From NCBI GenBank assembly GCA_038503065.1, contig JBCAMK010000009.1, positions 62,001 through 126,000 on the forward strand: a stretch of 64,000 nt of DNA. The letters are read 5' to 3'. Positions 20,579 to 61,760 of the stretch are shown one piece after another; position 1 is the first letter of the stretch, and every line of letters starts with the position of its first letter. This DNA is from Paragyromitra xinjiangensis. Its lineage: Eukaryota; Ascomycota; Pezizomycetes; Pezizales; Discinaceae. The notes beneath the pieces are model-generated. The model was not told where the DNA came from. It worked only from the letters and a program-made list of their open reading frames with translations, and did not search any database. Made by a program: the position numbers and the translations under genes.

Positions 20579-21487
20579 TTACAACTCCGGAACAGGGACA
20601 CCGAATTGACGATAGATATCAGGATCGGTGATGCCGGTGCTTGCCCAAGCGTGTAGCTTGAGGTCGGGGGTAGAGATTGCGCTTGTTACGAACTGAACAA
20701 CTCTGTTGATCCAGTCGACAATGTTTGAGCTGTTATCAGTCGCAATTGCCTGCCTAAACTCGACCGTCTCGTACGATAGAACGCTGGTAAGATTATACCT
20801 ATAGTTCCTGCAATATAAAGAAGCGTTATAGGATTTAGAGCAAATAACACAAAGGAGTTCTGGGATGTCGGTCGCAGCCTCGATCTTCCACATCATGTGG
20901 AGATTATCCAAATTTGCCAAACTAAGGCTCTCGCGATTCGAAAGGATGTACCCGTTGTAATCCGGATCAGCTTCCATTTCCTTTGTATGGCAGCGACATG
21001 CTGGATGGTAAGCATCCATTTGCTTTTCGAACAAGATAATTGCTTTCGCGATGCGCTTGAGATCTCGTAATGTGTGCGCTCGACCGATGCCGACATGAAC
21101 ATGCAAGCCGGTGCTATTGTTAAATGCGAGTTTGAATGAAGATGAGAGGATTTGTGTCATCTCTGGGATGACCCATTCCCATTGCTTGTTTTTGAGGATT
21201 GGAGTAGCGATCTCAGCACTTCTCTGTACAAGACCGCTGCCGGACGATTGAATAGTTTTGATGCTGGTATCAGCTTGAACTTGGAACGACGAGATGACTT
21301 TCTCAAGACTGAGACGTCTATGGATCAGGTTGTCTACCATGTCGAGGGCTTGTGTTCCGAGTTTCTCAGCCAGAGGCGTCAATGCGGATACGATAAGGTG
21401 GTAGTGCTCGAATATCGAGGTGTTGAGAGGGATTTGGCAGATAATGAACTCTAGTTCAACGCCAACAGTGATTTCGTTTACTGACAT
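20579..21487 (-). CDS. Putative amidoligase-family enzyme
   Basis: The frame encodes 302 residues from the ATG at 21,487 (MSVNEITVGVELEF). An upstream in-frame ATG at 21,697 would add 70 unlike residues and is less likely. The pattern matches the fungal and bacterial Amidoligase_2 family of the ATP-grasp-like/glutamine-synthetase fold: GVELEF at residues 9-14, the hallmark TGLHVHVG at about 126-133, and a late block YRYNLTS with ETVEFRQA. Family members are predicted to join amino groups to carboxylates, but the fungal substrate is unknown. The acidic GVELEF and the histidines of HVHVG are the expected metal/ATP-site residues. No signal peptide is seen. The frame is intact. Confidence 0.78.
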   Translation of the reverse strand: MSVNEITVGVELEFIICQIPLNTSIFEHYHLIVSALTPLAEKLGTQALDMVDNLIHRRLSLEKVISSFQVQADTSIKTIQSSGSGLVQRSAEIATPILKNKQWEWVIPEMTQILSSSFKLAFNNSTGLHVHVGIGRAHTLRDLKRIAKAIILFEKQMDAYHPACRCHTKEMEADPDYNGYILSNRESLSLANLDNLHMMWKIEAATDIPELLCVICSKSYNASLYCRNYRYNLTSVLSYETVEFRQAIATDNSSNIVDWINRVVQFVTSAISTPDLKLHAWASTGITDPDIYRQFGVPVPEL

Positions 21488-22589
21488 CGTAAAATTTACT
21501 GATGATCGATCGTAGGTAAGGCTTGTAGAGAACGCGTAGAGAGTGGTTTGGTGAATAGGGAGAATTGGTGGAGGTAGGTGATATTCGCTGAATTTATCGT
21601 AAATGACTTGATTGAATTCGAGATTCAAGAATGTCTTTCGTTTTGACACCGGTGGACTATCTTGAAACAGAACACAGTCTTGGGGGACATGAATCAACCT
21701 TTATGGAGAAAAAATGGTTCAAGAGCCACCCTATATTCCAGTTCCTTTTTGTTACGTGCCAATCAGTGAACGTAGAAAGGTAAAAATTCATGTTTGAAGC
21801 CGCTCCCTCAATTACATACTGCAACAGTAGGCTGTAGCTAGCAGATAAACTCTAGCATGTAGTATGTAATTCTACTTTCTATTCTGAAATTTACTTGCCC
21901 TCTACCAGTATGCATGTCATCCCTTATCCATCCACTTTTTCTTTGTTCGTCAAAGCAATACACGTAACTCTGCGGACTTACTTAGGCGTTCACTAAATAC
22001 TGGGAAACGTTAGCCACGCCCACCAAAAATTACTAGTACTGTGGAACAACTCAAAAGCAACCAAATTGACTGCTGCTATAGTGTGATATTACTAGCTACG
22101 CAAATTTAAATAGATTTAGTCATCGGGCAGAGTCCATTATTTTCGTTTTATGATATGGTCAGTTTTGTTGATTTGGGGTTGCATTACGATGTGGCTCGTT
22201 GCAAATTCTTAGTATCTAATGAATGCCTAAATAAAACGAAGTACAAAACGAGGAATATGATTGGTACTGCGATAACCGTAGACCTCTACACCAAAAAGGT
22301 TATCAGCCCTTTCATCTGGGCTACGAAAAGGCGATATTGTAACACCCCCCAACAGTACGGCAGTGGATCTAACCCTTTTTTCGTTCTGTAACTAATACAA
22401 GTTGTCACCACCCACCCAGTTGATTTTCAAGTCGTCAACTTTTATGGTTTCATTTAAAAATCTTACTTTTAAATGGAATGCCGTATCTTACTACTTGATA
22501 CAATACAGAAATGGAAAAACACAATTGAAGAAACGACAGTAAGAAAACTTTATGCTATTATAGACAAAATTCCCCTTCCAACGTTGGGT
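21488..22589. other. Intergenic region
   Basis: About 1.1 kb of AT-rich DNA separates the amidoligase start from the 3' end of the NADH dehydrogenase gene. A short inverted pair CATTTAAAAAT / TTTTAAATG lies near 22,450-22,475. The frame at 22,155-22,391 has no recognisable content. Confidence 0.5.
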
Positions 22590-28108: not shown

Positions 28109-29968
28109 CTACACTCTCAACTTCTCGAGTTCATCCACCACCCTCCAAGCAAATGCTTTCAATGCTTCACCCTCATCCCAATCTCCTTTCTCCTCTGACG
28201 CTAAACACTCTTCAACAACACGCTGATACGTAGCACCACACTTCCCGCCTAACTCCTTCGCCCACCCGTTCAGCAATCGATCTTGCCACACTTCCGGTGT
28301 GTATTTGTCCTGCCACAGGCTATCCAAGCGGCACCATAGACCGATCTCGAGGAGGACACAGCCGAGAGCATAGGCGTCATAGGCCTGTCTAAAACGTGGT
28401 CGTTTCGCTGGATTTGAAGCTACGGAGTCTGTGTGTGGGGTTTGTATGTAGTCTGGATGCCAGTATAGCTTTGCAGGGTGTTCAGGATGGGAATTCATGG
28501 ACTCGGAGACTTCATTTGGGGCGTTGGGGCGGGCGTATTCAAATCCTGATAGATAAAGTAGATACGGTAGATGCAATGTGGGAGTTGGAGAGGCCTTGAG
28601 ATATTTGAAAAATAGCACGTTATAGGAACGGAAATCTTTGTGTAGCCATCCCGCAGAGTGGAGTTCAAGGATCGCACGGGAAAGAGCTCGTGCAAGGGTA
28701 AATCTTTCTCCTAGAAGTGGTAGTTTTGATTCCCCGAGCAGAGCGTAGAGCGAGACTGGAGGGTTGGCGCTTTCAGGGGTGGTATCAACGGGTGGTGACG
28801 GTGATTGTAGCAAGGGAAGTCGATATACAAAACCGATACGAGGGTTATTAGGATAGGTCGTATCATCGAACCATCCAAGGCACTCGAGTAGTCTAACATC
28901 TGTTGGTTTGGATTTTACGTGCAACAGGCGTGCGAGGTCGTCAATACGAGAAAACATCTGTTGGGTTATATTAGTCGGCATATTGTCATACGGCTTCCAT
29001 TCTATCAACACATCGACGGATTCTGGAGATGCTCGCGAAGGGTAATAACTGCCGATTATCCTTGAGTGTGTGGTGTGAGGGTCGTTTGAAGCCGGAGATG
29101 AGAAATTCTTCGCGAATCTAATAGAACTTGGTACCAATTCGAGGCTTTGGTTGGCGTTCTCATGTGTTATCCAAGGTTTTATCTCCTCTATACTAAGCTT
29201 AAGAGATTTTAAGCTCGCCGTTTCCTGCAGCCTAGGGTATCCTTCCGAGGCAACCTCTTCAATTGTATGCAGTTCTTTCGCTTCTTCCATGTATGACAGG
29301 ATTTCCGACGGTAGTGCGCGGTCGAGTGATGCCTGCGTGGTTGGAGGCAGAAGTGCAAAGAGCCTATCGTTGAAGTCTTTAAGGTCTTTAATGAGTAGTG
29401 TAAATGCGGATTTGTTGTTAATTGACCAGCGTAGCTTCTTGATAAGAGAAAGTGACTGTTTAAAGTCTCTATCGTTGACTGCTGTGGACTTCCAGGGATA
29501 TAAGAATGACTCGATGATTTGAAAAGGCGCGAAAGTATCAGTTCGGGGCTAACATGTTAAATTTCAACTGTTAGCAACTTTTGTATACATTCGGCATCAG
29601 TATTAGTTGATCCCCACCCGCGGGGTCCTCACCTGCAAGGTCAAATCCACAGCCTTCAGTCCGAACCGTGATTTAAGCATCTCTGTGTTCGTCAGAGTAT
29701 CGATAATTTGCACTAGCACCCCTCTGAATATCTCAGCCAATCCCGCACTGTTGTTTAGTTGTTCCCCAAGCTGCGGGCTATAGGTCGAGCTTTGCGAGAA
29801 TCCCCAGCTGCGACCCCACAGTATAAAACGGGCTTCTTCGATGCGAAGTTTCCAGTAGAGAGTTTTAGTGTCTTTGCTTGCTGCCGCTGCATCTGAAAAG
29901 ACACTATAGCATTCGGTGGCAGTTTTGAAAAGGTCAAAGACTCGGATGACAGAAAGTATTACTTCCAT
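28109..29968 (-). CDS. HeLo-domain (prion-inhibition and propagation type) protein with kinase-like C-terminus
   Basis: There are two exons, 29,968-29,633 and 29,548-28,109, with an 84-base phase-0 intron (GTGAGG..TTAG, with GCTAAC upstream of the acceptor), giving 591 residues. Residues 1 to about 200 resemble the HeLo domain of fungal HET-S-like proteins: an amphipathic N-terminus (VIRVFDLFKTATECYSVF), YWKLRIEEARFILWG, and KLRWSINNKSAFTLLIKDL followed by NDRLFALLP. The rest is a divergent protein-kinase fold: an invariant-lysine-like IEWKPY near residue 297, the catalytic-loop-like LHKDFRSYNVLFF near 414-426, and YDAYALGCVLLEIGLW. The DFG aspartate is not obvious, so it may be a pseudokinase. 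In known cases HeLo domains act at membranes in heterokaryon incompatibility; that role here is inferred. It is divergent from the kinase-ankyrin gene about 340 bases away. Confidence 0.85.
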
Positions 29969-40050: not shown

Positions 40051-40056
40051 GAAGTG

Positions 40057-40109
40057 TACGGCGGCTCATAGCTACTAAAGTCCGATCTGAAGATTTGACT
40101 GCAGCAACC
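40057..40109 (+). repeat. Left terminal inverted repeat of the 13.1-kb element
   Basis: It matches the reverse complement of 53,138-53,190 at 50 of 53 positions. It is preceded by the target duplication GAAGTG at 40,051-40,056. Confidence 0.93.
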
Positions 40110-40224
40110 ACGAGCAACATACCAAAAACCCCATTAAAAAAAAGTTATTTTTCTTGTAAGTGTTTTAACTAGAATAGAATACAATTGCTAATGAAAAAAT
40201 ATGAAATAATTAAAATCAAGAAAC

Positions 40225-41701
40225 TCATTTCCTGGCACGTAGTCTTGTAAGTTGAGTAGAAATCACATTTGAGTCCTCGGCCACATCCTTTATTTCCTCT
40301 TGAGAGGCTTTAGTAGGATGACATCGAGCCCTTTTCTTAGTGACAACAGGTAATTTCTCAACTTCTTCAGCCATCACATCATGGTCTGAGTTGCTTTCTG
40401 AACCAACAAATTGAGGAGGAGACGAGGCAATATCTAGGTCATTCTCACAGTCGCTATATTCTAGCAATGGGAGAACGGGAAGAGCAGGAGATGACTCTTG
40501 TTCAACTTGCCTATTTCTTTTATTGATAGATGAGGAAGGGCAAGAGTCGTCATCATATACCCGACACATGGATACTGTTCTTTTAATTGGAGGTGGTGAT
40601 GGTGATATATATGGACTCTAAAGTATTAACCATTATTAGTCCACTGGTCAACAAAGTATATAAATCTAGCTTGCTGACTTACTTCTCGACCAACAAAAAG
40701 AGTTGTATGTCGTGCAATCTCTTCTTTTTTAACAAGCTGATCGCCATCCATATCCAGTCCCGATTCCTGTTTGATATTTTTTATAAAGGCATGTGAGACT
40801 TCTTTTTCTTTTTGAGACCGGTCCCGTTTATCCTTTATAGTCCAATACCTCACAACTAGGAATATCTTAGTCATAGCTCCTCCGGGAAAATCTAATAAAA
40901 ATTCCCCAACAGTAATCGGATCTCTTCTCACTTCCAAACGATGAGGTCCTTCTTTTGCACTAAAAAAAGTAGCCGGAATGATTTGTTGGATATCTAAATA
41001 ATCGATATTGACAGCTTCTGCATCCGTCCAGTTCGGTGATGAGTCCAGAAGCATCCGAGCAAATTCTGCAAAGTCTGATATAACTTCTGTAAGGTCCTCA
41101 AAAACTTTAGAAGAAACACCTACTTTAATTAGTATATATTTCCCAAAGTGTGAGCTTGTTGTAGTACCTTACCTAAGTTTTTAAACGAGGTCCACTTATC
41201 AGAACTAGAACCTACAATAACAACAATCTTTCGAGAGTCTCTTGGTGGAATAATTTTTCTTGTATCCCCTTCTTTTACTCCTGGAATGGCTAAACTTGGC
41301 AGCAAACCATACTTGGAACTGCCTTGTTTTTTTGATTTTTTTTCTAATGAACTTTGTGTTATTGATCCTTTTCTATATAATTCAACAATTTCTCGATCGG
41401 TAAACTGACCTGTTTTGAAATGTACTGGCTTAGTAGGTGATCCTTCAGGACTAGATATGATTATCGTTTCCGGTTGTGGTGGGAGAATACTCTTATTTTT
41501 CCCTTTAACATTGGTTCTGCCAGTAATAACTCGTCGGGATGGAACAGGGGCAAAAGTAGGAACAGCAGGTTCAGAAATGATAAATAAATATGCAGGGACT
41601 CGTTCCCCACAACAACGAAAGATTCTGTCAGATGTTTGGGCATGCAAAGTATTTTCCCTCTGGCCACAGTATTCTGAAGGGAGTAATCGTGAGGAAGACA
41701 T
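40225..41701 (-). CDS. Element-encoded protein of unknown function (three exons)
   Basis: There are three exons, 41,701-41,173, 41,104-40,683 and 40,617-40,225, with in-phase GT..AG introns of 68 and 65 bases. The first has ATACTAAT before the acceptor. They give 447 residues. The N-terminal third has Pro/Ser and basic stretches; the middle (exon 2) is the most ordered (VFEDLTEVISDFAEF, GEFLLDFPGGAMTKIFLVV); the C-terminus is Ser/Glu-rich ending LTRLRARK. I recognise no domain. The gene is adjacent to the left inverted repeat and divergent from the integrase gene, so it is probably an accessory or regulatory protein of the transposon. The frame is intact in all exons, unlike the integrase. 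Confidence 0.7.
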
Positions 41702-41831
41702 AATTGTAGGATGGGGTGAATAGGGTAAGTGGGGTAAGGTGTAGTAAAATAGCAGATGAAGAGCAGACGGAGAGCAGGTATGATGAATGTAGAAAATTCA
41801 CAGGACAGTTACAAGATTATATTTGGGAGGT

Positions 41832-42334
41832 TGTAACGACCATGCCGCTCACGATCGTTGCACGTCATTAAGTCAAGAATATGACAGTCCCGTAACATGG
41901 TATTTGTTACTCAAGCGTCAATCGAACTCGTGTTTCAACTCACTTCGTCGTTGTCTTTAGTGTAGACATTATACAAGTGTTGTTATAGTTGAGAAAAGGC
42001 TTCGATTTATAACTTAGAAGATTGCGTACAGAACTAAACTATCTATCTACTCGACCTCTCTTATATAGAGGTCGATACATGACCTTTGTACTCCTCCTAC
42101 GCAATACCATTGCGTAGTCTCTGACGTGTTCATTAGCTATGACTCTATGCCTACGCAAGCTCTTGCGTAGTCATGACTCAGTACATGATGTCATAAGAAA
42201 TCCAACTGCGTAATACATTGCGCGTCCCTTCGTCATGATCTTCATGACGCAATACATGATGTAGTTTCTCCCTCCATTAGTTCCTTTCGTGATGTAATCG
42301 AAATGAATGAAGGTCTCGATAGAGGTTCGTGACA
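41832..42334. mobile_element. LTR-like insertion upstream of the integrase
   Basis: A block of 503 bases starts TGTAACGACC and ends GGTTCGTGACA, so it has TG..CA ends whose outer bases are mutually inverted (TTGTnACGA). It contains a TATA-like CTTATATAGAG at about 42,058 and several TACGCAA/TTGCGTAG inverted words. It looks like a solo LTR. I see no 5-bp duplication at its edges, so it may be a recombined or truncated copy. It sits exactly where the first part of the integrase gene should be. Confidence 0.45.
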
Positions 42335-42335
42335 A

Positions 42336-43583
42336 TTAACTATTCATCATAGGCATCGTATTGCAAGAGCTTTAAAAATAGTAGATCCTACTGGTGTAGA
42401 AAATCGTTGGAAAGGGGTAAACAGACATCATGCGCAGTTTACATGCCCAGGCCCTAATTGGTGTTGGTCTATCGATGGACATTTAAAACTACAAATGTTC
42501 GGGATAGAGATTTATGCTGCTATTGACTCATATTCCCATTACATTACCTGGTTCTCATCATGTGGTGTTAAAAACTGGTATAAGTATATTGAGTCAGTTT
42601 TTAAATGTCATAAGAACATAATTGTATGCGCTGCGTATACGGGCAGACAGGGGAACAGAGACCATGATGACAGCAGAAGCATTTTGGGGATTGCATCAAG
42701 TTGAGAATCCTGAAGTCACATTTCCAGAAGTGTTTTGGTATGGGACATCTACACGAAACGTTAGAATTGAAAGTTGGTGGGGGCAGCTTACGAAAGGTGC
42801 ATCACAGAATGGAAAGTATGGTTCACCAACGATTTATTAGTATTCTTTTATATCCTACAGGTTTAAAGTATTAATTGTATATATATAGAGACACTTTCGA
42901 AAGCTACAACAAGATCACTTATTCTACGAAGATAATATGGAAGATACTATATCTCTTATATATATTTATCTCCCACTATTACGAGAGAAGTTGCAGCAAT
43001 TTGTGGAATGGTGGAATGATCACAAAATAAGAAAACAAAGCAAGAGACCAAATCTTCCCACTGGCGAACCATACTATAATTACTATTTTCCGCCAGATGG
43101 AGTACAAGACTATGGAACTTGTCCGTCATTTGAGTGGATCGATAATCACCGGAACAAGAAATTAAGAAATACAGAAACTAATGCATTATATGGTATTAAA
43201 CTCTCTCAGCTCTTTACAATCTAGTTATATGTACTAACTTGTAAGACCATGATGAGTATCTACCGGAAGCTACTATGGCTTACTGTTATGCTTTATTACA
43301 CAAGGCAGGATTTCCACCACAGGTGAAATATGAAGATACCATGCCTGATGGACAAAGATCTCATTTGATTATGTATTGCTTTTTACGTACTCATCTGAGA
43401 AGGCATGTAGCAAAAGGAAATAAAGCTCCACAACTCTCATTACTTCATAAACCTCTAGAAAATAAGCGACAAAGAGGTTGTAGAGGCTTAAAAACGAATG
43501 AACAAGAGATAGAATTCTCAGGAGAGGAGGAAGATGAGGTAACAGACAGTTCAATAGATAGTAGTGACAACAATGAAGATTAA
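42336..43583 (+). pseudogene. Integrase-core (DDE) transposase gene, 5' truncated and frameshifted
   Basis: The frames give a retroviral-type integrase core: PGPNWCWSIDGHLKLQMFG (first Asp), AAIDSYSHYITW, then after a one-base frame break near 42,640 RADRGTETMMTAEAFWG (second Asp), and STRNVRIESWWGQL (catalytic Glu). An intron starts at 42,816 (GTATGG). The conserved tail LREKLQQFVEWWNDHKIR followed by PNLPTGEPYYNYYFP is next. A further intron at 43,193-43,245 leads to the last exon (from 43,246; DHDEYLPEATMAYCYALL) ending at 43,583 in an acidic Ser/Asp tail. The D, D and E are all still present. The N-terminal part is missing where the LTR-like block lies. This copy is therefore probably dead. 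The family is the eukaryotic integrase-core transposase group common in fungi. Confidence 0.8.
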
Positions 43584-43784
43584 AACACTTATATATGTTT
43601 ATATATGTGTGTGGTCATGTAGGTCATGTGGGTAGAATGGTTAAGAGTTTTGTCAGCAGAGGATTTCTTAGTGGGCTATTGCTGTTCAACATTGCCTGTC
43701 AATTTACCACTTTATATTGGAACATGATGATCTACAATGTTTCTCACACCTATATATCTTTTAACTTTAACTATATGTAATACA

Positions 43785-43955
43785 CTCACCCACACTTGTC
43801 CACCTCGCTTACACTTGTCTACCTCGCCCACACTCATTCACACTCGTTCACCTTGCCCAAACTTGTCCACCTTGCCCACTGGCACACTCAACCACACTCA
43901 CCCACCCCACCCACATCCGTCCACCTAGCCCACACTCATCCACACTAGTCCACCT
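43785..43955. repeat. CCACACTCGTCCACCTCGCC-type minisatellite, copy 1
   Basis: Imperfect tandem words of CACACTCGTCCAC and CACCTCGCC alternate on the plus strand. The same array type occurs at 48,985-49,262. Element B (43,976-48,277) lies between the two, so they could have been one array before insertion. Confidence 0.75.
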
Positions 43956-44144
43956 GTAACGGACCCACAAGGCTGCATCAGCAAAACTGATTCTGATCCA
44001 GGCTTGCACTTCCAGGTCCCGCATCTTCCAGGATGTCTGAGTGTTGGTGTGGGAGGGTCCTGAGCGCAACTGGATCAACCACCCGTGTTGTGGCGCACCC
44101 TGGTACCTGCAGGAATGAAGGACTGTGCTCCAGCACACCCCATG

Positions 44145-45962
44145 CATCAGCAAAAAGGGATGCCCGCCTGGGCGCGATGGGCAAGAACCTGGGCGTGGCC
44201 CCAACGCCCAGTACGCCTGCTTGCGTCCAGCTGCGTCCATAAGTCTAGTACGCCCATACGTTCGTTCTATTGCTCGCCCCAGCACGTTGGTACGCCTAGT
44301 ACGGCCATACGCTTGCTCTATAGCTCGCCCTAGTACGTCCATACGCCCATGCGCCCACATACGCCCACGGCCACACGCCCACACGCCCACATACGCCTAT
44401 GCGCCCATACGCTTGCTCTATTGCTCGCCTCAGCATGCATAGACGCCTAGTACGCCCATACAATCGCTCTATCATACGCCCAACCGCTCTATCATATGCC
44501 CATGCGCCCACATACGCCCTTGCGCAGCCCAATTGCTCTATCATACGCCCATGCGCCCATATACTGTCTCCTGGCCGCAAATTCAGCCAAGTCGAAACCC
44601 TAACCCTCGGTTACCCGACCCTCCTAGGCTCATCATGACCTCACACGCGCCTTCCGCCAGCAATTCCCTTATATCAACCACACACCCCACCTCCTGCTCG
44701 CCTCCCACCTCCTGCTCGCCTCCCACCTCTCCACCTCCCCCCTCTCCACCTCCCGCTTGCCCCACCTCTCCAATCCCCACCTCTTACCCGTCAATCGACT
44801 GTGCTAACATGCTGTACTATAGAGTCAATTCAGGAGTCAATTTGGAGGCTTAGAAACAGCCGATTCGGAGTCAATTCGGGAGTCAATTCGGAGTCTATTG
44901 AGCAGCCAATTCGGAGTCTATTCAGGAGTCTATTCGGAGTCTATTCAGGAGCCTATTCAGGAGCCTATTCCGCAGTCAATTCGGAGCCTATTCGGGAGCC
45001 TATTCAGCAGTCAATTCAGGAGTCGATTCGGAGACTCGGAAACAGCCAATTCGGAGTCTATTCAGGAGTCAATTCGGCAGTCAATTCAGCAGGATTCGGA
45101 GGCTCAGAAATAGCCGATTCGGGTCAATTCAGGAGTCAATTCAGGAGTCAATTTGGCAGTGGATTCGGAGGCTCGGAAACAGCCTATTCGGAGGCAGGAA
45201 AGCACGGGATTCGGAGTCTATTCGGGAGTCAATTCAGCAGGATTCGGAGGCTTAGAAACAGCCGATTCGGACTCGATTGAGGAGTCAATTCAGCAGTGGA
45301 TTCAGCAGGATTCGGAGGCTTAGAAACAGCCGATTCGGAGTCTATTTGGGAGTCTATTCGGCAGTCAATTCGGCAGTCAATTCAGCAGGATTCGGAGTCT
45401 ATTTGGGAGTCTATTCGGCAGTCAATTCAGCACGATTCGGAGTCTATTTAGGAGTCAATTCGGCAGTGGATTCAGCAGGATTTGGAGGCTCAGAAACAGC
45501 CGATTCGGGGTCAATTCAGGAGTCAATTCGTGAGTCAATTCAGAGGCAGGCAGACAGCTGACTCGGAGGCTGCTTGGGAGGTTGCTTGGGAGTCGATTTG
45601 GAGGCAGCTGGATCAGAGCGGAAGCAAGATAATGGGTGGAATTGCGTCCTACATGTACATAGAGCAGAATAGACTTTTAGTGCCATACAAAGCAGCGTGA
45701 CAAGCAGCGTGACATCGTACGCCCAATGCGCCCAATGCGCCCATGGGAGGCTATACGTCCAGTATGTCAGGCTCGGATTTTCCAGGCCTGCGCCTGGGCG
45801 TGGACGAGGCAGGTCCTACGTCCAGCACGCCCAGCGCGCCCAGACGTACGCCATACTAGACGATGCGCCTAACGCAGTGCCTAAAAAAAATCCGAGCCCA
45901 GTGCGCCTAGTGCGCCTACTGCTCTAGGCGCGACCGGACGCAGACCGGGCTTTTTGCTGATG
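44145..45962. mobile_element. Element A: CATCAGCAAAAAG-ended element nested in B
   Basis: Ends are CATCAGCAAAAAG at both sides when read inward (13 matching bases), flanked by TG (44,143-44,144 and 45,963-45,964). Length is 1,818 bases. Subterminal regions are packed with ACGCCC/GCGCCC words (44,180-44,570 and 45,700-45,930). The centre is a minisatellite. No gene is seen. Confidence 0.65.
44822..45610. repeat. 11-12-base minisatellite (GGAGTCTATTC / GGAGTCAATTC), forward block
   Basis: Dozens of imperfect copies of an 11-12-base unit are interspersed with GGAGGCTTAGAAACAGCCG spacers. All frames that stay open here give SIRSLF- or GVYS-like repeats and are not treated as genes. The block lies inside element A. 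Confidence 0.9.
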
Positions 45963-46564
45963 TGGACCTCGCTTGCATGGCCATGGACCTTCCTGGAGCT
46001 CCTGGAGCTCAGCTTCACGGTCCGTGGTCCTCTCTGGAGTTTCGTACCCATCTCCGGTGCCAATCAGGGTTCGCTTTTCTAGGTCCATGGTGCTCTCTGG
46101 ATACCACTGAAGTGCGTACCCCCACTCCACCAGCGCCCTGAGGCACGTACCTGCCCTCTATTAGACCCCCGAATTGCGCACCCCGCTGACAGGAGATCGC
46201 AGGACTCAGACCTCGCTTGCAAGCGACAATCAATAACCCTGACCTTAGGGACTTAGCGAATTTTTGGTGAATGCCTTTCGCTGCCACCCGTACCCTACCG
46301 TTGCCACCTTACCCCTATTCTCCAACTCCCACCCATTCACACCCACCCACACCCCCTATTGCCGTTCCCTCCCTACTTTGCAGTTACATGAACTTTGCTA
46401 ACATCGTGACTTCAGTTCCCACATCCCACATACATTCAGACATCGTTGACAGCAGACATAGGACCCTATTACATCGGACCTCGCTTGGTCGGACCCTTTC
46501 AGCCGCAGACCCCTTCAGCAGCAGACCTCGCTCGCTTCCACAGCCTGCTGAATCGACTGTGTGA

Positions 46565-47810
46565 GAGCCTCCCGAGCAGCCTCCGAATCGGCTGTTTCTA
46601 AGCCTCCGAATTGACTCCTGAATTGACTCCTGAATAGACTCCGAATTGGCTGCTCAATAGACTCCGAATCGACTCCCGAATAGGCTCCGAATTGACTTCT
46701 GAATAGACTCCGAATCGACTCCCGAATTGACTCCGAATCGGCTGTTTCTGAGCCTCCGGATCCACTGCTGAATTGACTGCCGAATAGACTCCGAATCGGC
46801 TGTTTCTAAGCCTCCGAATCCCGCTGAATTGACTGCTGAATTGACTGCTCAATAGACTCCGAATCAACTCCCGAATAGGCTCCGAATTGACTGCTGAATA
46901 GGCTCCCGAATAGACTCCGAATCCTGCTGAATTGACTGCTGAATTGACTCCTGAATAGACTCCTGAATAGACTCCGAATCAACTCCCGAATTGACTCCGA
47001 ATTGGCTGTTTCTGAGCCTCCGAATCCACTGCTGGATTGACTGCCGAATAGACTCCGAATCGGCTGTTTCTAAGCCTCCGAATCCTGCTGAATTGACTGC
47101 TGAATTGACTGCTCAATAGACTCCGAATCGACTCCCGAATAGGCTCCGAATTGACTGCTGAATAGGCTCCCGAATAGACTCCGAATCCTGCTGAATTAAC
47201 TGCTGAATTGACTCCTGAATAGACTCCTGAATAGACTCTGAATCGACTCCCGAATTGACTCCGAATCGGCTGTTTCTGAGCCTCCGAATCCACTGCTGAA
47301 TTGACTGCCGAATAGACTCCGAATCGGCTGTTTCTAAGCCTCCGAATCCTGCTGAATTGACTGCTCAATAGACTCCGAATCGACTCCCAAATAGGCTCCT
47401 GAATAGGCTCCGAATCGACGGCTGAATCCACTGCTGAATAGACTCCGAATAGACTCCGAATCGGCTGTTTCAAAGCCTCCGAATCCTGCTGAATTGACTC
47501 CTGAATAGGCTCCTGAATAGACTCTGAATCCTGCCGAATTGACTGCTGAATTGACTGCTGAATAGGCTCCCGAATAGACTCCGAATCAGCTATTTCTGAT
47601 CCTCCGAATCCTGCCGAATTGACTGCCGAATTGACTGCTGAATAGGCTCCCGAATAGACTCCGAATCAGCTGTTTCTAAGCCTCCGAATCCTGCGGAATT
47701 GACTGCCGAATTGGCTCTGAATCGGCCGTTACTAAGCCTCCGAATCCTGCCGAATTGAATGCTCAATTGACTGCTGAATAGACTCCGAATCGACTGCGTG
47801 CCAGCGCCTA
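46565..47810. repeat. Same minisatellite in inverted orientation
   Basis: The unit and spacer of 44,822-45,610 appear here as their complement (GACTCCTGAATAG, CGGCTGTTTCTAAGCCTCCG). With the forward block it forms a long imperfect inverted repeat with an interval of about 1 kb. It lies inside element B, outside element A. Confidence 0.9.
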
Positions 47811-48984
47811 AAACAACTGCTGAATAGCAGACCAAACAATTGATTTAGGCACAGGTGGGTTTAGTGCGGGGGGGGGTTTGCCTCCAGTGGCGACTGCTTG
47901 ATTTTGTACATAGAGATCCTATAGTGTAGCTTTTCAATATACGTAGCCGAATTGATACCAATAATCATGTGCATTCGTGTACCCCTAGTAGTAGTATTAT
48001 TGGCGCCCTACAGCCGCCCTATAAGTGGCCTACAAGCGACCTACAAGCGACAGTGTGGTCCACAGGAATTGATGGAGCTCCAGGAAGGTCTGCCATCTAT
48101 GGTAGGTGGTCCAGGGAGGTCCACGAGGGTCCGTGAGAAGTGGTGTGTGGTCCGGGAACCGTGTGCAAGGGTCCTTGGGATATGGCTGTTCCATGGACTG
48201 GCACTTGCCTCCATCTGGTCCGCGCCATCCATGAGGGTCCAGGAGCGCCCGGGAGCCGAGAATCGGTTTTGCTGATGTGTTACATGCGAAAGGTAGAATA
48301 GACCCGGGCAGACGGAGAGGTACAAGGACCAGCATGAGTGGAGTAGCTACCACATGCTAGGGAACACCAGTACCCCGCTGACCTGGTGGTTAGGAACATC
48401 CGGAGGTGCTAAGGCTGACGGGCCTGTAGCAGATCTCCGATGACATCAAGCACATAGAAATGCGGTTGAGTTCCTAATCCACCTGTGCATGCCCCACCAG
48501 CTATGGCTGATAGGCGGCGCAACTGGGAGAACTATTCTAGCGGACACCTGACGCAACTATGGACTGATTAGCGCCATGCAAGTAGTCCTGCAGGACTAGG
48601 CTGGCGGATCATAGAGTCCTGACTGGTAGAGCAGTGCATAAGGAGCGGTTGCACATGAGGTGCAGAACTCCAGCGGAATGTGAGAGAACACTTCCGAAGG
48701 GAACCGCCCATGATCACTGACAGGATTCAGGGTTAACCGGATCCCCCAGCTGAGTAGAACTGAGTAGAGGCAGCGAGCATGCAGTACTACAAGTACTGGC
48801 GAGCCCCGCCACCAGTTGCTCTTCTCCATCTTGAACCAGAGACCGAGTGACGAGAATTACCGAGTTCCGCCCTTAAGATTATTGAGTATACTGCACGAAA
48901 ATACTTTAAGATCTCAGCCTGACTTTAGTATAAGCAACGGCCGTTTTCCTACCTAGCCTTAGTAGTTGTCTAGAGGACCACCCC

Positions 48985-49262
48985 CATTACACCACCTTGC
49001 CCACCTTGCCCACACTTGTCCACACTTGTCCAAACTTGTCCACCTCGCCTACACTCATCCACCTCACCCACACTCGTCCACACTCGCCCACCTAGCCCAC
49101 ACTCGTCCACACTTGTCCAAACTTGTCCACCTCACCTACACTCATCCACCTCACCCACACTCGTCCAAACTTGTCCACCTCGCCCACACTCGTCCACCTC
49201 ACCCACACTCGTCCACAGTGACACTCGTCCACAGTGACACTCGTCTACATCTACACACTCAC
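48985..49262. repeat. CCACACTCGTCCACCTCACC-type minisatellite, copy 2
   Basis: Same unit family as 43,785-43,955, same orientation, longer. It is followed by AT-rich DNA and then the 3' end of the minus-strand element gene at 49,432. Confidence 0.8.
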
Positions 49263-50984
49263 CCATCTCTTAACTTCAACTACTCATAACATGCTTGCCC
49301 ATAACACTTGCCTACTAGTATACTATATATATCCCAACTCCTATCATACATAATACACTCGCCTACACTACAATACACTCATTAACACTATATATATCTT
49401 TCAATTTTAACCAAACATAACTTTTAATTAACTATGCTGACTTTGCTTGTTTGTTTTCCTCCCTTACATCCAACTTACTTACTTTTCTGACCCTTGGCCT
49501 ACCCCGTTTCCCTGTTTGAATAGATACAACATGACTTGATGCTATAGTTAACTCCTTCCTTAACTTAATTTCCTTAATCGTATCCATGAAACTTCCAATG
49601 CCAATCTCAGCCCTATTACCATCTGTATTCAAGAAAACTTGTTTCTTTTCAGCCTCTTCTAGTGAAAGAATCCTACCATTTTTTGCCCCGAACTGAGGAA
49701 AAATACAAGTATAAGTATACTTGGCTTTGCCTTTGTTCTTAATGTCATTGCTGTCCAAGTCTGGATCCATCTCTTCCCTTTTCTTGCTCCTTAACTGTAT
49801 GGTATAAATGGGGACCTTTTTTCTCTTCATATTTCCAGTGCTCGTTATCATATCCTCCTCCCATCCTTCCTCCAATGGCTCCATATCTGGTGCCAACAAG
49901 CCAGCTTTTTGGAGTCTGTTATAATCTGAAAGAGAAAGTAATGTATGAGGCTTTCGGTAGGCTTTGGTGAACTGAGAGTTGATGTAACGGGTAACTGCCT
50001 CAGAAAAATCAAATGCTCGATTGGAGGTGGAGCCAGCAGGAACTCTTTGACAGTATTCTGATGATTTTGCAATCTCAAAAAAGGTCCGAATAGCTGAAAG
50101 GAGGCTTTTTCTTAGCTGGAAATTGCCAAAAACATCCTTGGTACGGTGCTCAGGGTGTATAAAGGCTCGATGGAGAATTTCTACTGCATGGCTGGTTCCA
50201 ATGCCATTCCAGAGTGTATTCTTTGAAGAATCTGTCATCTCTTTATATATCCCACCAGTACGCTTGGTAAGAGAGGGTAAAGAGGAAAGTAGGTTCCTTT
50301 CAAAGGCATCGGGGTGTTGAATTGGGCATGGTGCCAAAGTGGTATCGTACCAGACATTGGTTCTGATAAAAACAGGAGTAATGGTGGTGAGTTTATTCCT
50401 AGTAACTTGTTAGTATATAGTCGAGGGAAAAGGAGTGAGAGTGCATACCTATCAACCAAAATAACACACATCTCAGGGCCTACAATTGCAGCAAGAATAA
50501 ATGTATGCTTGCTAGAATCATCCTCCTCTTTCCATGCTTTGATAATAGTATCGTACTCATGTCTAGTGCATGGTAAACCATGACCATGTAGAAGGAAATG
50601 TACTCTCAACCAAATCCCATCATCAGCAAAAAACGGAAATGCCGTAAAGTCCCTCTGGACGCCAAAATGCCATGGCGGAAACATACCCTTCTGGGCGCAG
50701 CGTGGTCCAACTACATGTCGCCCAGAAGACATGAGGTAGGAGCTCTGGTCATCTGGAAGGCAGCGCTGTAGGCTCTGATCGTCTGGACGAGCTCTAGTCA
50801 TCTGGACGAAGCTTGTCGACCTCTGTACGTCCGGGGGAACCTCTTGCGGGGCCAGCACATTTTGGTAGGTTTGGAATTGCACGCTTTGCTTGTATGGCTC
50901 GTATGGCTTCAATTCGTTCTATTGATTTATCTACTACTATTCTCTGGATCTATATAAATGTACAAACATTTACTACCCGCAGCG

Positions 50985-51960
50985 AATCGACCAATCGGCG
51001 CAGGCGGCGGAAGCTGCGGCAGCGAATTGACCATATGGCGGAGGGCAGCTGCAGCAAATCGACCATATGGCAGAGGCGGCGGAAGCTCAGGCAGCGGATC
51101 GACCATGTGGCGGAGGCGGAGGAAGCTCAGGAAGCGAATCGACCTATTGGCGCAGGCGCAGGAAGCTCAGGCAGCGAATCGACCTATTGGCGCAGGCAGC
51201 GGAAGCTGCAGCAGCGAATTGACCATATGGCGGAAGCGGAGGAAGCGGCGGAAGCGCAGGCAGCGAATTGACCATATGGCGCAGGCAGCGGAAGCTCAGG
51301 CAGCGAATCGACCTATTGGCGCAGGCAGCGGAAGCTCAGGCAGCGAATTGACCATATGGCGGAAGCGCAGGCAGCGGATCGACCATATGGCGCAGGCGCA
51401 GGCAGCGCAGGCAGCGAATCGACCTATTGGCGCAGGCAGCGGAAGCAGCAGCAGCGAATCGACCTATTGGCGCAGGCAGCGGAAGCTCAGGCAGCGAATT
51501 GACCATATGGCGGAAGCGCAGGCAGCGGATCGACCATATGGCGCAGGCGCAGGCAGCGCAGGCAGCGAATCGACCTACTGGCGCAGGCAGCGGAAGCTGC
51601 AGCAGCGAATTGACCATATGGCGGAAGCGGAGGAAGCGGCGGAAGCGCAGGCAGCGAATTGACCATATGGCGCAGGCAGCGGAAGCTCAGGCAGCGAATT
51701 GACCATTTGGCGGAAGCGCAGGCAGCGGATCGACCATGTGGCGCAGGCGCAGGCAGCGCAGGCAGCGAATCGACCTATTGGCGCAGGCAGCGGAAGCTGC
51801 AGCAGCGAATTGACCATATGGCGCAGGCAGCGGAAGCTCAGGCAGCGAATCGACCTATTGGCGCAGGCAGCGGAAGCTGCAGCAGCGAATCGACCATATG
51901 GTGGAAGCGGAGAAAGCGGCGGAAGCGCAGGCAGCGCAGGCAGCGAATCGACGACCTGCC
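50985..51960. repeat. About 40-base tandem repeat array (GGCGCAGGCAGCGGAAGC..)
   Basis: Units of about 35-45 bases built from GGCGCAGGCAGCGGAAGC, TCAGGCAGCGAATCGACC and TATTGGCGCAGG recur about 25 times. The array stays open in several frames on both strands because it lacks stops in its unit. The resulting ANRPIGAGSGS-type and WSIRCLRF-type peptides are treated as artefacts. Confidence 0.9.
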
Positions 51961-52012
51961 AGAGGCTGGCAGCGAATTTAGCTGCCTCCTGAGCTCGCTT
52001 AGGCGGAAGCAG

Positions 52013-52015
<3 letters not shown>

Positions 52016-52063
<48 letters not shown>
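52016..52063. repeat. AGGC tetranucleotide run
   Basis: About eleven perfect copies of GGCA lie just after the 40-base array inside element C. A likely length-variable site. Confidence 0.95.
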
Positions 52064-52064
<1 letters not shown>

Positions 52065-53137
52065 TGTGAATCGAACCGAGTCTGGGAGGCATATCAGCGG
52101 GAGTCAAATAAACGGAAGCAAGACGTTACCTAGGAGGTTCTTTGCAAGCAGAGCTCGTTACTTCGCACCTAAATGTCACGATGTCAGCGGTACAGCGAGG
52201 TTGAGAATGGGTAGGGGGGAATAGGGGGAAGCATGTGGGAAGGAATAGGGGTAGGTGTCTTAGTAGGCGTTGCTTAGGCGACACCTAAGCGAAGCTTGAA
52301 GATTTTGAAAATCGCTAAGTGCCTAGGGTCAGGGTTTTGACTTAGCGAAATAAAAAAAAGGTTCCGGCAGCTACACGCATCGGGAGGGTGTCGGACGCAC
52401 ACAGGTCGTCCAGAGGCGGTTGGTGAGAGCACGGGCTTCTGGAAGTGCGCTCGGGCGTTGGCTGGCGGTAAGAGTTAGTCACAGCGCATCTAGATGCAGC
52501 ACAGGCGCAGGCAGGCCGTCAGGAGGGGTTCAAGAGGCAATGCCTGTCTTCCAGAGGGCCGAAATGCCAATATACAATGTTACCCTTCTGGATGCCTTTT
52601 TTTTTTTACTGATGATCAGCAAGAGGAATTCCCATTGCTTTACCATAGAATTGGACATCGGAGCCCTGGAAAAAAAACTCCTTCTTGTCATAGGCATATT
52701 CCTCTAGTTGTTCCCCATCTCGCAGGGTTGGGATTTGGCTAGTGTTGGCTCTGAACCATTGTTCATGAACATCTAAGGTGTAGATGCCTGCTGGAACTTG
52801 GGCAGCTATCATCCGCTGCATGTCATAGTATGTGATTCCTTCAGGCATTGTGTGGTTGCGCGAGTGTGGTTGCGCGAGAGGTTGTGGGGGGTTTTGGTTG
52901 CGCGAGTGGATGTGCGAGTGGATGTGTGCGGGGTTGTGAAGAACAGAAAAAATCATCGCTACTAGGGAAAAGCTCACAACTATTGACCCCCCCAGCATGA
53001 CCAGTAAAATGTTTAAACCCCATAATAATATTTATCTCTAGCATATATTTAATCTACTCCCTAACATAGCTAGTAAAGCGAAAATATATTTATGTATCCT
53101 CGGTTACAGAGCTACATGTTGTACTGGGTCGCTAAGC

Positions 53138-53190
53138 GGTTGCTACAGCCAAATCTTCAGATCGGACTTTGGTAGCTATGAGCCGCCGTA
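53138..53190 (-). repeat. Right terminal inverted repeat of the 13.1-kb element
   Basis: Inverted counterpart of 40,057-40,109, followed by the duplicated GAAGTG at 53,191-53,196. Confidence 0.93.
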
Positions 53191-53595
53191 GAAGTGTATC
53201 AGATAAATCAAAAACCCAACTCCTTGCAGGAAATAAATGAAAGGAAAAATAAAATAAAAATAAAAATAATAAAAAAAGGCTGTCATACCCTATCGGGGAA
53301 TGCCGCTTATCCAATACTTTGTCCAGCTGAGTGTGATGCTGGCTTATCATTCGATAAAGAGTGCAGCTACATTTCAGCCACAATGTAAATCAGGCCTCTT
53401 AAACGGCTGCTATTCGTGCCCTGGACGATAGCTGATAGGCGACAAAGTAGCGTAAATAAACAAGGTCACCGGAATTCAAACACCTGGTAATACGCGGCTT
53501 CAGAGCGCGCAAGTAGCTAGAAATATATAGAACACTCCCCAGCCAGCCTTCTGGCTCCCCTCCACTAAACCTCCCCCAAACCGCAATAACACAAC

Positions 53596-59312: not shown

Positions 59313-61112
59313 CTAATAGGTCAGCATCTTGCCACGGCGTTTGAGCTTAATCTTGGGACAAAGCTCTTTGATACGCTTCTGATTGTACGAAGAAAGTGCC
59401 TCGGCGAGATGATTATCAGCCCTAGAAACCCATCTAGTTCTAAGATCTATGTCTAATCGTGCTGCCAGAAGTAGACACTCCCGAAGTACTTCCATTGCCT
59501 CTCCTCGGATAGTCTCGTTCTCAATACCTCGTGCAACAAGACGATTGGCGACATTAACAACTACCCTATGATGTTGCCAACCCTTTCCCCAGCGTCGAAG
59601 ACATTGCACAATCGCCTGAATCTCATTGACGGCGATATCCTCCGACTTATTCGGTGAAGAAACGGCTAACACTTGACTCACAGTCATGTCGGCCACTTTC
59701 TGGTCAAACGGACGATAATAACCACCCAAGCCTGTAGCGCCAGACCCGTCTGACCAAACCATTGCCTCTGGACGAACACGGGCAAGAGATCGTACCGCGG
59801 GTACAGAAGTGAGCAGATCGCACCACCACACCAGGTCACTTTTAGCGTCCGCCGAGACAGGTCGTCGCGCATCCCGGGCACGCGGAACATCAAGCTCTTT
59901 CTGAAGATCGAACAGCCGTCTAGTAAACGTCCGTCCAAGTGGGACGACTGTGGAGGTAAACGATAGAAATCCCGTAAGCGACCGAAGTTCGGTGAGGGAA
60001 GTTGTTTCCTGCCCCATACACTCCTTCACCAGCCTGATGCCCTTCTCTTGCTTATTTTGCGTTAAACGGGCTTCCATCTTCCCACTATCTATCTCTATAC
60101 CCCCATAAGCAACAAGAAGCCCCTGTTCGTTTTTGGCGAGTTTAACGTTGAGTCCGAGCTGGGAAGCAAGATCCATGTAGACACGATCAGCAGATTTCCA
60201 GTCCGTTCCAGGGGGGAGAATGATCAGAAAGTCGTCCACGTAGTGCACCACTTGGGCGCCAAATGGTTGCAGGCGAAGTTCCAGTATCCAATGGAACAGC
60301 TCGGCAAATAAATTAAACAGGTAACCAGACATGCGTAAGCCAAATGGGAGAAAACGCTCGGAATAAAACTTATCTCGCCATGAAAAACCAAGCAGCGGAG
60401 AGTCGATGGGAGAAACGGGTACATGACGATATGCGTCCTCGAAATCGCGTTTAAGCATGACACACCCCTCCCCCATAGAAGCAACAATCCCCAATACTTG
60501 CTCGAGAGAAGGGTGTCTAACAGTTCCCCAGTCTTGGTTGATATGATCATTGACGGACTTTCCGGATGGGAATGAAAGGTCGTGAATACGTCTCTTTTTT
60601 CCATTAGACTTATCCCTTAGACCGATTGGACAGCTAACAAAAAATTTGGGTAGATTCCCGCGGCGGCCGTGTTCATTAAGTCGTTGATGGGATAACTGAT
60701 CCAGTAGGTCTCTTTCAAGAAAGTCCGGTTGTGAATCTGCGGAACGGTGGTTTGCGTAGACCTGCACCCCAGCCCGTACCCCTTCGTAGCCAATCCTCGC
60801 ACCATACCGAATTATGCCAACGACAGCGTCAACAACACTTTGATCTGGGTATTCGCTTAGAAGCTCCTTCCAGGCAGATGCATTGAGAGGGCCCTGGAAC
60901 ATAGGAGTTTTGTGGGTTGTATAAACTTCATACGGAATATGCGTATTCGGTCTTGCCTCAGGCTTTTGTAGGGAAAGGATTCGACCGTTCAAGCTGATTG
61001 GTACCGACGAATGCCCTAAGGAAGAGATCCCCGAGGAAGAACTTGAAGAGGCACCTGAACTAGGGACAGGAGTTTTGGTAAAATACTTTGCAAGAAACGC
61101 AGTCACAGACAT
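59313..61112 (-). CDS. DIRS/Ngaro-like reverse transcriptase-RNase H, orphan ORF
   Basis: An uninterrupted frame encodes 599 residues from the ATG at 61,112 (MSVTAFLAKYFTKTP); a TTG slightly upstream is not needed. Reverse transcriptase motifs are in order: RRIHDLSFPSG (about residue 184), MLKRDFEDAYRHVPVS (motif A Asp near 223), RFLPFGLRMSGYLFNLFAEL (motif B) and VHYVDDFLIIL (motif C, YVDD near 291-294). RNase H follows: VWSDGSGATGLGGYY (Asp near 455), VNEIQAI (Glu) and ADNHLAEALSSYN. At the third acidic site the usual D-N pair reads A-N (NVANRLVARG), so RNase H may be impaired. The order and the HYVDDFLI motif fit DIRS-like elements. No gag, recombinase, LTR or split repeats are seen nearby. 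Confidence 0.85.
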   Translation of the reverse strand: MSVTAFLAKYFTKTPVPSSGASSSSSSGISSLGHSSVPISLNGRILSLQKPEARPNTHIPYEVYTTHKTPMFQGPLNASAWKELLSEYPDQSVVDAVVGIIRYGARIGYEGVRAGVQVYANHRSADSQPDFLERDLLDQLSHQRLNEHGRRGNLPKFFVSCPIGLRDKSNGKKRRIHDLSFPSGKSVNDHINQDWGTVRHPSLEQVLGIVASMGEGCVMLKRDFEDAYRHVPVSPIDSPLLGFSWRDKFYSERFLPFGLRMSGYLFNLFAELFHWILELRLQPFGAQVVHYVDDFLIILPPGTDWKSADRVYMDLASQLGLNVKLAKNEQGLLVAYGGIEIDSGKMEARLTQNKQEKGIRLVKECMGQETTSLTELRSLTGFLSFTSTVVPLGRTFTRRLFDLQKELDVPRARDARRPVSADAKSDLVWWCDLLTSVPAVRSLARVRPEAMVWSDGSGATGLGGYYRPFDQKVADMTVSQVLAVSSPNKSEDIAVNEIQAIVQCLRRWGKGWQHHRVVVNVANRLVARGIENETIRGEAMEVLRECLLLAARLDIDLRTRWVSRADNHLAEALSSYNQKRIKELCPKIKLKRRGKMLTY

Positions 61113-61760
61113 GTGGCACGAAATAAACAAACGAAGAGTAGGTATAAGAAGTGACTCGTATAGTTTTCAAGGCCAGATATTTTGAAATTTGAAACGAACT
61201 GCGAAATTCAGTACAGGTGCGATGGTACTAGTCGAAACTCATACTCAGCTGTTTGGCGGGGAAAAGCTATTCTTTTAATTGTGGAGGATTTTACCCCGCC
61301 TTCATGATTAGTATACTTCGGGCTACGAAACTGAAAAGCAGGCGGCTTCCTGTCACATGCGAGTAGCCAAAATTGATAATTACAAGGTCTTATCCATTAT
61401 GTTGTTTGGTCTCGTGGAAACGGATTGATCCGAATTGCAAAACCCACATTATCATATCGCAAATCCCACACCCAATTATTTGAGAGAAACATAACTAGAT
61501 ACTAACTTACTTAGGCCTATACAAACCCAATCTACTTTCAAGAGGAAATACCTCATAAATTATCATACCCTGTAACCACTCATTGAATCCATAGTGAATT
61601 AATGGCCAGCCAGATTCTAAATCCTACTGTACCAGTCCATCAGTCGAAAAGACATTACTCAGGGTCACACCCAAGAAGAATATTACTAGAGGATGAACCA
61701 CTATACCCACTTTAGCTGCGTAACGATTTCTTAGGCCAGCCTTTCACCAGGGTTCGCATA
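61113..61760. other. Upstream region of the reverse transcriptase gene, nothing recognised
   Basis: About 650 bases is without a coherent frame. The end (61,700-61,760) contains TTAGGCCAGCCTTTCACCAGGG, a diverged copy of sequences at about 62,375 and 63,450. Confidence 0.45.

Follow-up and report, generated by a model that had tools for sequence, protein, structure and literature searches.

The window analysed here is a stretch of 64,000 nucleotides of Paragyromitra xinjiangensis (assembly GCA_038503065.1, contig JBCAMK010000009.1, positions 62,001 to 126,000). It contains a 13,134 bp element that, judging from its sequence, is almost certainly one copy of an IS3EU-type DNA transposon that has been mobile recently. 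The element carries gene A next to its left end, the remnant of an integrase/transposase gene, and gene B next to its right end, which very probably encodes an Fpg/Nei-family (NEIL1-like) DNA glycosylase with the catalytic motifs kept. The features of the element are as follows, with terminal inverted repeats abbreviated as TIR and the ratio of nonsynonymous to synonymous substitution rates as dN/dS.

40057..53190: whole transposon (13,134 bp, contig C9), between two GAAGTG copies
40051..40056, no strand: left target-site duplication GAAGTG (sequence comparison)
53191..53196, no strand: right target-site duplication GAAGTG (sequence comparison)
40057..40109, + strand: left TIR, 53 bp, begins TACGG; similar ends with other 6 bp duplications occur in eight further elements
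53138..53190, - strand: right TIR, 53 bp, three transitions relative to the left (sequence comparison)
41173..41701, - strand: gene A exon 1 (homologs in Morchella)
40683..41119, - strand: gene A exon 2 (gene model)
40225..40617, - strand: gene A exon 3; whole protein 452 amino acids (aa), open in the window copy (dN/dS 0.18-0.19 against the C11 copy)
42336..43583, + strand: integrase/transposase remnant, exons 3-5 only, without exons 1-2, frame broken in exon 3 (Pfam rva_4 on 42336-42704 and 42889-43221)
52615..52848, - strand: gene B exon 1, 5′ part, with the Met-Pro-Glu start and Gly-Lys (alignment)
50448..50620, - strand: gene B exon 1, 3′ part, with an HGH motif (alignment)
49432..50364, - strand: gene B exon 2, with an H2TH-like region (NGIGTSHAVEILH) and a C-terminal GRP motif that is AT-hook-like by eye (profile and alignment)

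A first-pass annotation of the sequence had described 53 bp inverted ends with three transitions and GAAGTG on each outer side, and both are confirmed at 40057-40109 and 53138-53190. The mismatches between the two ends number three and all are transitions. An exact 6 bp match at a single site has a probability of 1/4096 by chance. The ends are not among the 25 longest inverted pairs reported by a general repeat finder, and those 25 are minisatellite.

We searched the one genome (48.2 Mb, 22 contigs) for further copies. With the left 200 bases as query, the element's own place and five others were found, namely the right end in the window and two more end pairs, on contigs C21 and C11. The C21 copy (at C21:143245) is 8,734 bp long, has GGGCAG on both sides in the window orientation (CTGCCC on the other strand) and is 99.4% identical to the window element across 1,776 bases in the first block aligned. 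The C11 copy (C11b, to distinguish it from C11a on the same contig) is 7,251 bp long with CTAAAT on both sides (ATTTAG on the other strand), and it is 79-93% identical to the window element across the main aligned blocks. More divergent relatives with exact duplications are found on C3 (5,691 bp, GCCCAC), C10 (6,080 bp, CCTGAA) and C6 (12,458 bp, GAAGGT). There are also compact elements, in which the integrase is the sole match among the three genes and whose ends are about 80% like those of the window element; these lie on C2 (2,664 bp, CTGACC), C9 (2,667 bp, GCTATC) and C13 (2,658 bp, AAAGTC), again with exact duplications. Thus all nine related elements for which both ends were found, six with three genes and three compact, range from 2.7 to 13 kb and have an exact 6 bp duplication that differs in each.

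Genome searches gave 25 matches for a gene B relative, 22 for a gene A relative and 48 for the Pfam model rva_4. Eight loci carry gene A, the integrase and gene B in one shared order and relative orientation, namely C9 (with the window copy), C21, C11b, C3, C11a, C6, C10 and C15. C1 and C14 have gene A and the integrase without a gene B match. Ends were sought at the loci under study and in five further short stretches. Both were recovered at six of the eight three-gene loci; C11a and C15 have one end each; the stretches on their other sides contain, judged by eye, a Gypsy-like pol gene (L051) in the first case and a PlavakaB-like insertion (L054) in the second. Two C4 copies and one neighbour of the C21 copy have a single end only, and the remaining integrase matches yielded no end in the stretches examined. 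The end of the C21 neighbour (L007, 677-745) lies 20 bp from the three-gene copy, so that two IS3EU-type insertions almost touch.

The window and C21 copies differ at 14 of 3,028 bases in three aligned blocks, a count that omits two alignable blocks (97.6 and 94.6% identical) of integrase remnant and repeat-rich sequence. Because the differences are few and the duplications are not the same, the family has been mobile recently. The first-pass annotation would have been contradicted had no second copy with matching ends and internal genes turned up; such copies exist and carry different 6 bp duplications. The window copy itself looks dead, since exons 1-2 of its integrase are gone and an insertion interrupts its glycosylase gene.

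The DDE integrase-core gene predicted earlier is borne out by rva_4 and a D-D-E triad, with the window gene itself a remnant whose exons 1 and 2 were lost to a replacement by sequence resembling a long terminal repeat (LTR). The C21 gene carries a stop. The C11b gene is an open frame of 530 aa in five exons and matches rva_4 at an E-value of 6.9e-31 (107.9 bits, cut-off 26), while rve, the general model, scores 17.3 bits and so misses its cut-off of 32.6. The acidic triad of the C11b transposase is D202, D261 and E302, the second D and the E being spaced by 40 residues (DD40E). Its N-terminus matches Clr5 (1.8e-7). Pfam gave no zinc-domain family at E up to 1, a result that bears on the HHCC zinc motif which IS3EU transposases lack upstream of the core. 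There are 75 integrase relatives, many of them unnamed; those with names are from ascomycetes except for one fish protein. The best is a Morchella importuna protein with 72% identity over 68% of the query.

Maverick/Polinton elements carry genes for PolB, an ATPase, a protease and capsid proteins as well as an rve-type integrase. A Maverick relative, which the first-pass annotation had suggested, or a decayed virus would account for a 6 bp duplication together with an integrase-core gene. This reading is rejected here as having almost no probability, because the integrase is rva_4 and not rve, the ends start with TACGG, the nine related elements are only 2.7-13 kb long, no polymerase, ATPase, protease or capsid family was found by Pfam among the 14 proteins scanned, and no relative was found in viral contigs in two scans, one of them limited to close relatives.

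A maximum-likelihood tree was built from 30 integrases, including relatives from fungi and one from a fish, none of them labelled IS3EU, with the C15 integrase left out. A branch with a support of 100 divides 16 of the integrases from a group made up of the copies at seven of the eight three-gene loci, the C14 copy, five copies of compact type and the protein of Morchella importuna. The compact-type copies, including the two C4 copies known by one end each, form one clade (support 100) placed among three-gene lineages. This suggests from sequence that genes A and B were lost in the compact clade, and we go no further than a suggestion because the support of the surrounding branches is weak (39-69).

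The two intron-containing genes that had been placed beside the two ends were correctly recognised; A has three exons and B two, the first of them split in the window by an insertion. Gene A has an open frame in each of the three near copies (452, 452, and 462 aa). Pfam assigns it to no family at E up to 1, and a single search returned three homologs, all in Morchella. The locus tag of one of these, LAJ45_08977, is adjacent to that of an integrase relative, LAJ45_08978. The predicted structure is too poor for use (mean predicted local distance difference test score, pLDDT, 37.8; five rows in the alignment). Gene A is a second conserved accessory protein. Among named organisms, the nearest relatives of the proteins from all three genes belong to Morchella, Choiromyces and Maublancomyces, genera of the Pezizomycetes, which would probably place the host in that class too.

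The assignment of gene B is built on motifs, a sequence profile and a predicted fold. Ten of 14 gene B homologs were aligned, of which five stop short of the N-terminus; homologs occur in Choiromyces (P0082, full length) and Orbilia, among others. All 13 proteins that reach it (eight copies here and five homologs) begin with Met-Pro-Glu, as does the host's own Fpg, whose gene is at C6:1770823. Gly-Lys is likewise present in 13 of 13, within a WGK in three of the homologs and in the host Fpg; from the motif we take its Lys to be the catalytic one. A profile made from the 14 homologs aligns the H2TH region to NEIL1, and half of the homologs (7/14) match Pfam H2TH at E up to 1, the best at 1.1e-3, with P0082 under the cut-off. 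The model of a gene B homolog matches NEIL1/Fpg over about 259 residues, that is, over the whole predicted fold, at 12-17% identity to the solved glycosylase structures listed. As to a zinc or zincless finger, the aligned range extends to model residue 370, and residues 344-359 and 387-403 have a pLDDT under 50. The two gene B pieces that were scanned had no Pfam match at E up to 1. The term "new accessory proteins" of the first-pass annotation holds for A but says too little of B, which is Fpg/Nei-like by sequence profile, fold and catalytic motifs.

Catalysis might have been lost, with the gene B product left to bind DNA within the transposition complex by means of its H2TH region and AT-hook-like tail. 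The C-terminal GRP motif is widely kept among B proteins and most members have GIGT in place of GIGN, as this would predict. We consider it improbable, since Pro2, Glu3 and Gly-Lys are kept in every one of the 13 sequences covering them and the compact elements move without gene B.

Between the C11 copy and the other near copies, dN/dS is 0.07-0.19 for A and B, lower for B than for the integrase; for gene A the C11b and C21 copies give 0.19. The most diverged pairs are saturated and have no value. These data speak against A and B being passengers of no use to the element, as do the fixed order and orientation at eight loci and the recurrence in Morchella and Tuber. In favour of this reading, the compact elements that lack both genes have also moved and form a clade among three-gene lineages, with the weak branch support given above. 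On balance we regard useless passengers as distinctly improbable.

We propose that the transposase attaches to the ends, cuts the element out and inserts it into target DNA with a 6 bp stagger, as cut-and-paste transposition in this superfamily would imply. The glycosylase would remove a base from the DNA of the element itself, one that is modified or damaged. The likeliest substrate may be oxidised methylcytosine, with TET/JBP oxidases possibly supplied in trans, and removal of the base would help the element to escape methylation-based silencing and mutation. We put the probability of the whole, an IS3EU-type transposon with a gene of the glycosylase family that has some such role, at roughly 0.7. 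Erasure of cytosine marks as the specific function of the gene B product is a tentative proposal from sequence and analogy, to which we give clearly less than even odds.

Several observations favour removal of oxidised methylcytosine. Transitions between the window and C21 copies are enriched at CpG, which accounts for 6 of the 12 that are readable but for 11% of C contexts (P 0.0009), and the enrichment is weaker in the comparison with C11b (46 of 271 readable, or 17%, against 9%). Such a CpG bias between young copies is as expected if the host methylates the element. Human NEIL1 excises 5-carboxylcytosine (PMC5566547), and TET/JBP oxidases are carried by transposons of fungi, Tuber included, with IS3EU elements among them (PMC12730594). 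The genome has four TET/JBP-like matches, at C6:1157158, C15:1341155, C1:3431858 and C12:824328 (L046-L049), two of them over the Pfam cut-off. That the element itself includes a TET/JBP gene was considered and rejected, as all four lie elsewhere. By analogy, a transposon might encode its own base-excision enzyme for stripping cytosine modification while the TET/JBP half travels on other fungal transposons, so that one pathway would be shared out among mobile elements; this broader scheme is speculative and, on present evidence, rather unlikely.

Fpg/Nei enzymes are repair enzymes by established knowledge. Gene B could accordingly repair ordinary base damage or help to finish transposition, for example by apurinic/apyrimidinic (AP) lyase trimming at gaps or abasic sites, with no epigenetic erasure, and the fold and residues fit this equally well. 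We rate this alternative as slightly less probable than erasure; against it, general repair is already supplied because the host has its own Fpg, and the CpG-biased change between young copies points to methylation.

Several results weigh against a glycosylase that erases cytosine marks for the element. None of the four TET/JBP matches is at one of the eight three-gene loci. The three compact elements with exact duplications moved with only the integrase of the three genes, which makes A and B dispensable in cis for transposition. The TM-scores from Foldseek are moderate, at 0.31-0.38 by query and 0.45-0.58 by target length, the best-modelled gene B homolog reaches 12.4 bits against an H2TH cut-off of 34.7, and the Pfam H2TH model searched against the genome picks up the host Fpg alone and misses every B gene. 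Most B proteins have a Thr where the usual GIGN motif has its Asn. Each of the three near copies has a broken gene B, and dN/dS between other close copies is mixed, from 0.08 to 2.72, with some values based on few changes.

Transposon TET/JBP oxidases of fungi have already been proposed as tools against silencing (PMC12730594, in part). Oxidised cytosines still need to be removed, and a transposon-borne NEIL1-like glycosylase would, if the assignment is true, supply that step and make the silencing idea testable. No transposon-encoded Fpg/Nei enzyme was among the literature matches listed, in a search with little reach into subscription papers and bioRxiv. Even with a plain repair role, a glycosylase under purifying selection inside a transposon would be unexpected. 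Three-gene and compact elements are present side by side in this genome, so that their methylation could be compared.

The window copy also holds later insertions.

41832..42334, no strand: LTR-like sequence, TGTAACG..GTGACA, repeated in the genome, in place of integrase exons 1-2, without edge duplication (against the C21 copy)
43955..48991, no strand: nested LTR-type insertion, TG..CA, with CCACC on each side (against the C21 copy)
43976..48277, no strand: PlavakaB-like unit within the LTR-type insertion, CATCA..TGATG, TG duplication, minisatellites (sequence)
44145..45962, no strand: second PlavakaB-like unit, nested in the first, TG duplication (sequence)
50621..52614, no strand: PlavakaB-like insertion splitting gene B, CATCA..TGATG, AT duplication, minisatellite (against the C21 copy)

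One PlavakaB-like unit thus lies within another, which lies in an LTR-type insertion in the IS3EU-type element. The 13.1 kb TIR element of the first-pass annotation is a mobile element, but it did not transpose as a single 13 kb unit; against the C21 copy it shows later insertions and replacements, and its length of 13 kb is due to enlargement by nested insertions. The LTR-like sequence at 41832-42334 also occurs directly upstream of integrase exon 3 in two compact-type C4 copies (L035 and L036, reverse strand, 920-1319). Its recurrence at one position across elements points to recombination or to a hot spot for insertion. The units at 43976, 44145 and 50621 resemble PlavakaB, as described in a part of PMC12730594, in their CATCA..TGATG ends and 2 bp duplications; they differ in being minisatellite-rich, and no transposase was found in the few frames scanned by Pfam. 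The PlavakaB-like unit at C15 (L054) seems, by eye, to sit in gene A.

Elsewhere in the window, a long frame at 59313-61166 (- strand) has a reverse transcriptase domain (RVT_1, 4.1e-14) and belongs to an unrelated retroelement. The protein at 28109-29548 (- strand) has a HeLo prion-inhibition domain (6.5e-11) and DUF7580 and is possibly related to heterokaryon incompatibility. A putative amidoligase (Amidoligase_2, 1.9e-16) is encoded at 20579-21700 (- strand).

Among known systems, gene B is like NEIL1/Fpg in its Met-Pro-Glu start, Gly-Lys, H2TH-like region and whole fold, and unlike them in being transposon-borne, mostly GIGT, 12-17% identical to the solved structures listed and extended by a longer C-terminal tail. 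For the element as a whole, the sections of PMC12730594 and PMC10045372 on IS3EU give a 6 bp duplication, a TIR over 30 bp, TAYGG..CCRTA ends and a DDD/E transposase; PMC10045372 counts 17 autonomous IS3EU families in Repbase as of May 2022. The window element has a 53 bp TIR with TACGG..CCGTA, its family has 6 bp duplications and a DDE transposase, and this match to the description supports the IS3EU-like guess of the first-pass annotation (PMC12730594). The nearest well-studied relative in build is Styx of Zymoseptoria, described in part of PMC10853768 as about 8 kb long with a 36 bp TIR. Styx shares the IS3EU-type transposase, the 6 bp duplication and the possession of accessory genes; its GATA, CCHC and DUF3577 accessory domains were not found by Pfam in A or the two B pieces (E up to 1). 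The TET-carrying IS3EU families, in the portion of PMC12730594 that covers them, have an alpha-kinase gene and a TET/JBP gene. Neither A nor B has an alpha-kinase match in Pfam; the genome search for one was empty, as were its controls, so absence is not established. In the published IS3EU elements as in ours, there is an extra gene opposite in orientation to the transposase. Where the TET-carrying families have their alpha-kinase and oxidase, the element described here has an Fpg/Nei-like glycosylase, as predicted above, and gene A instead.

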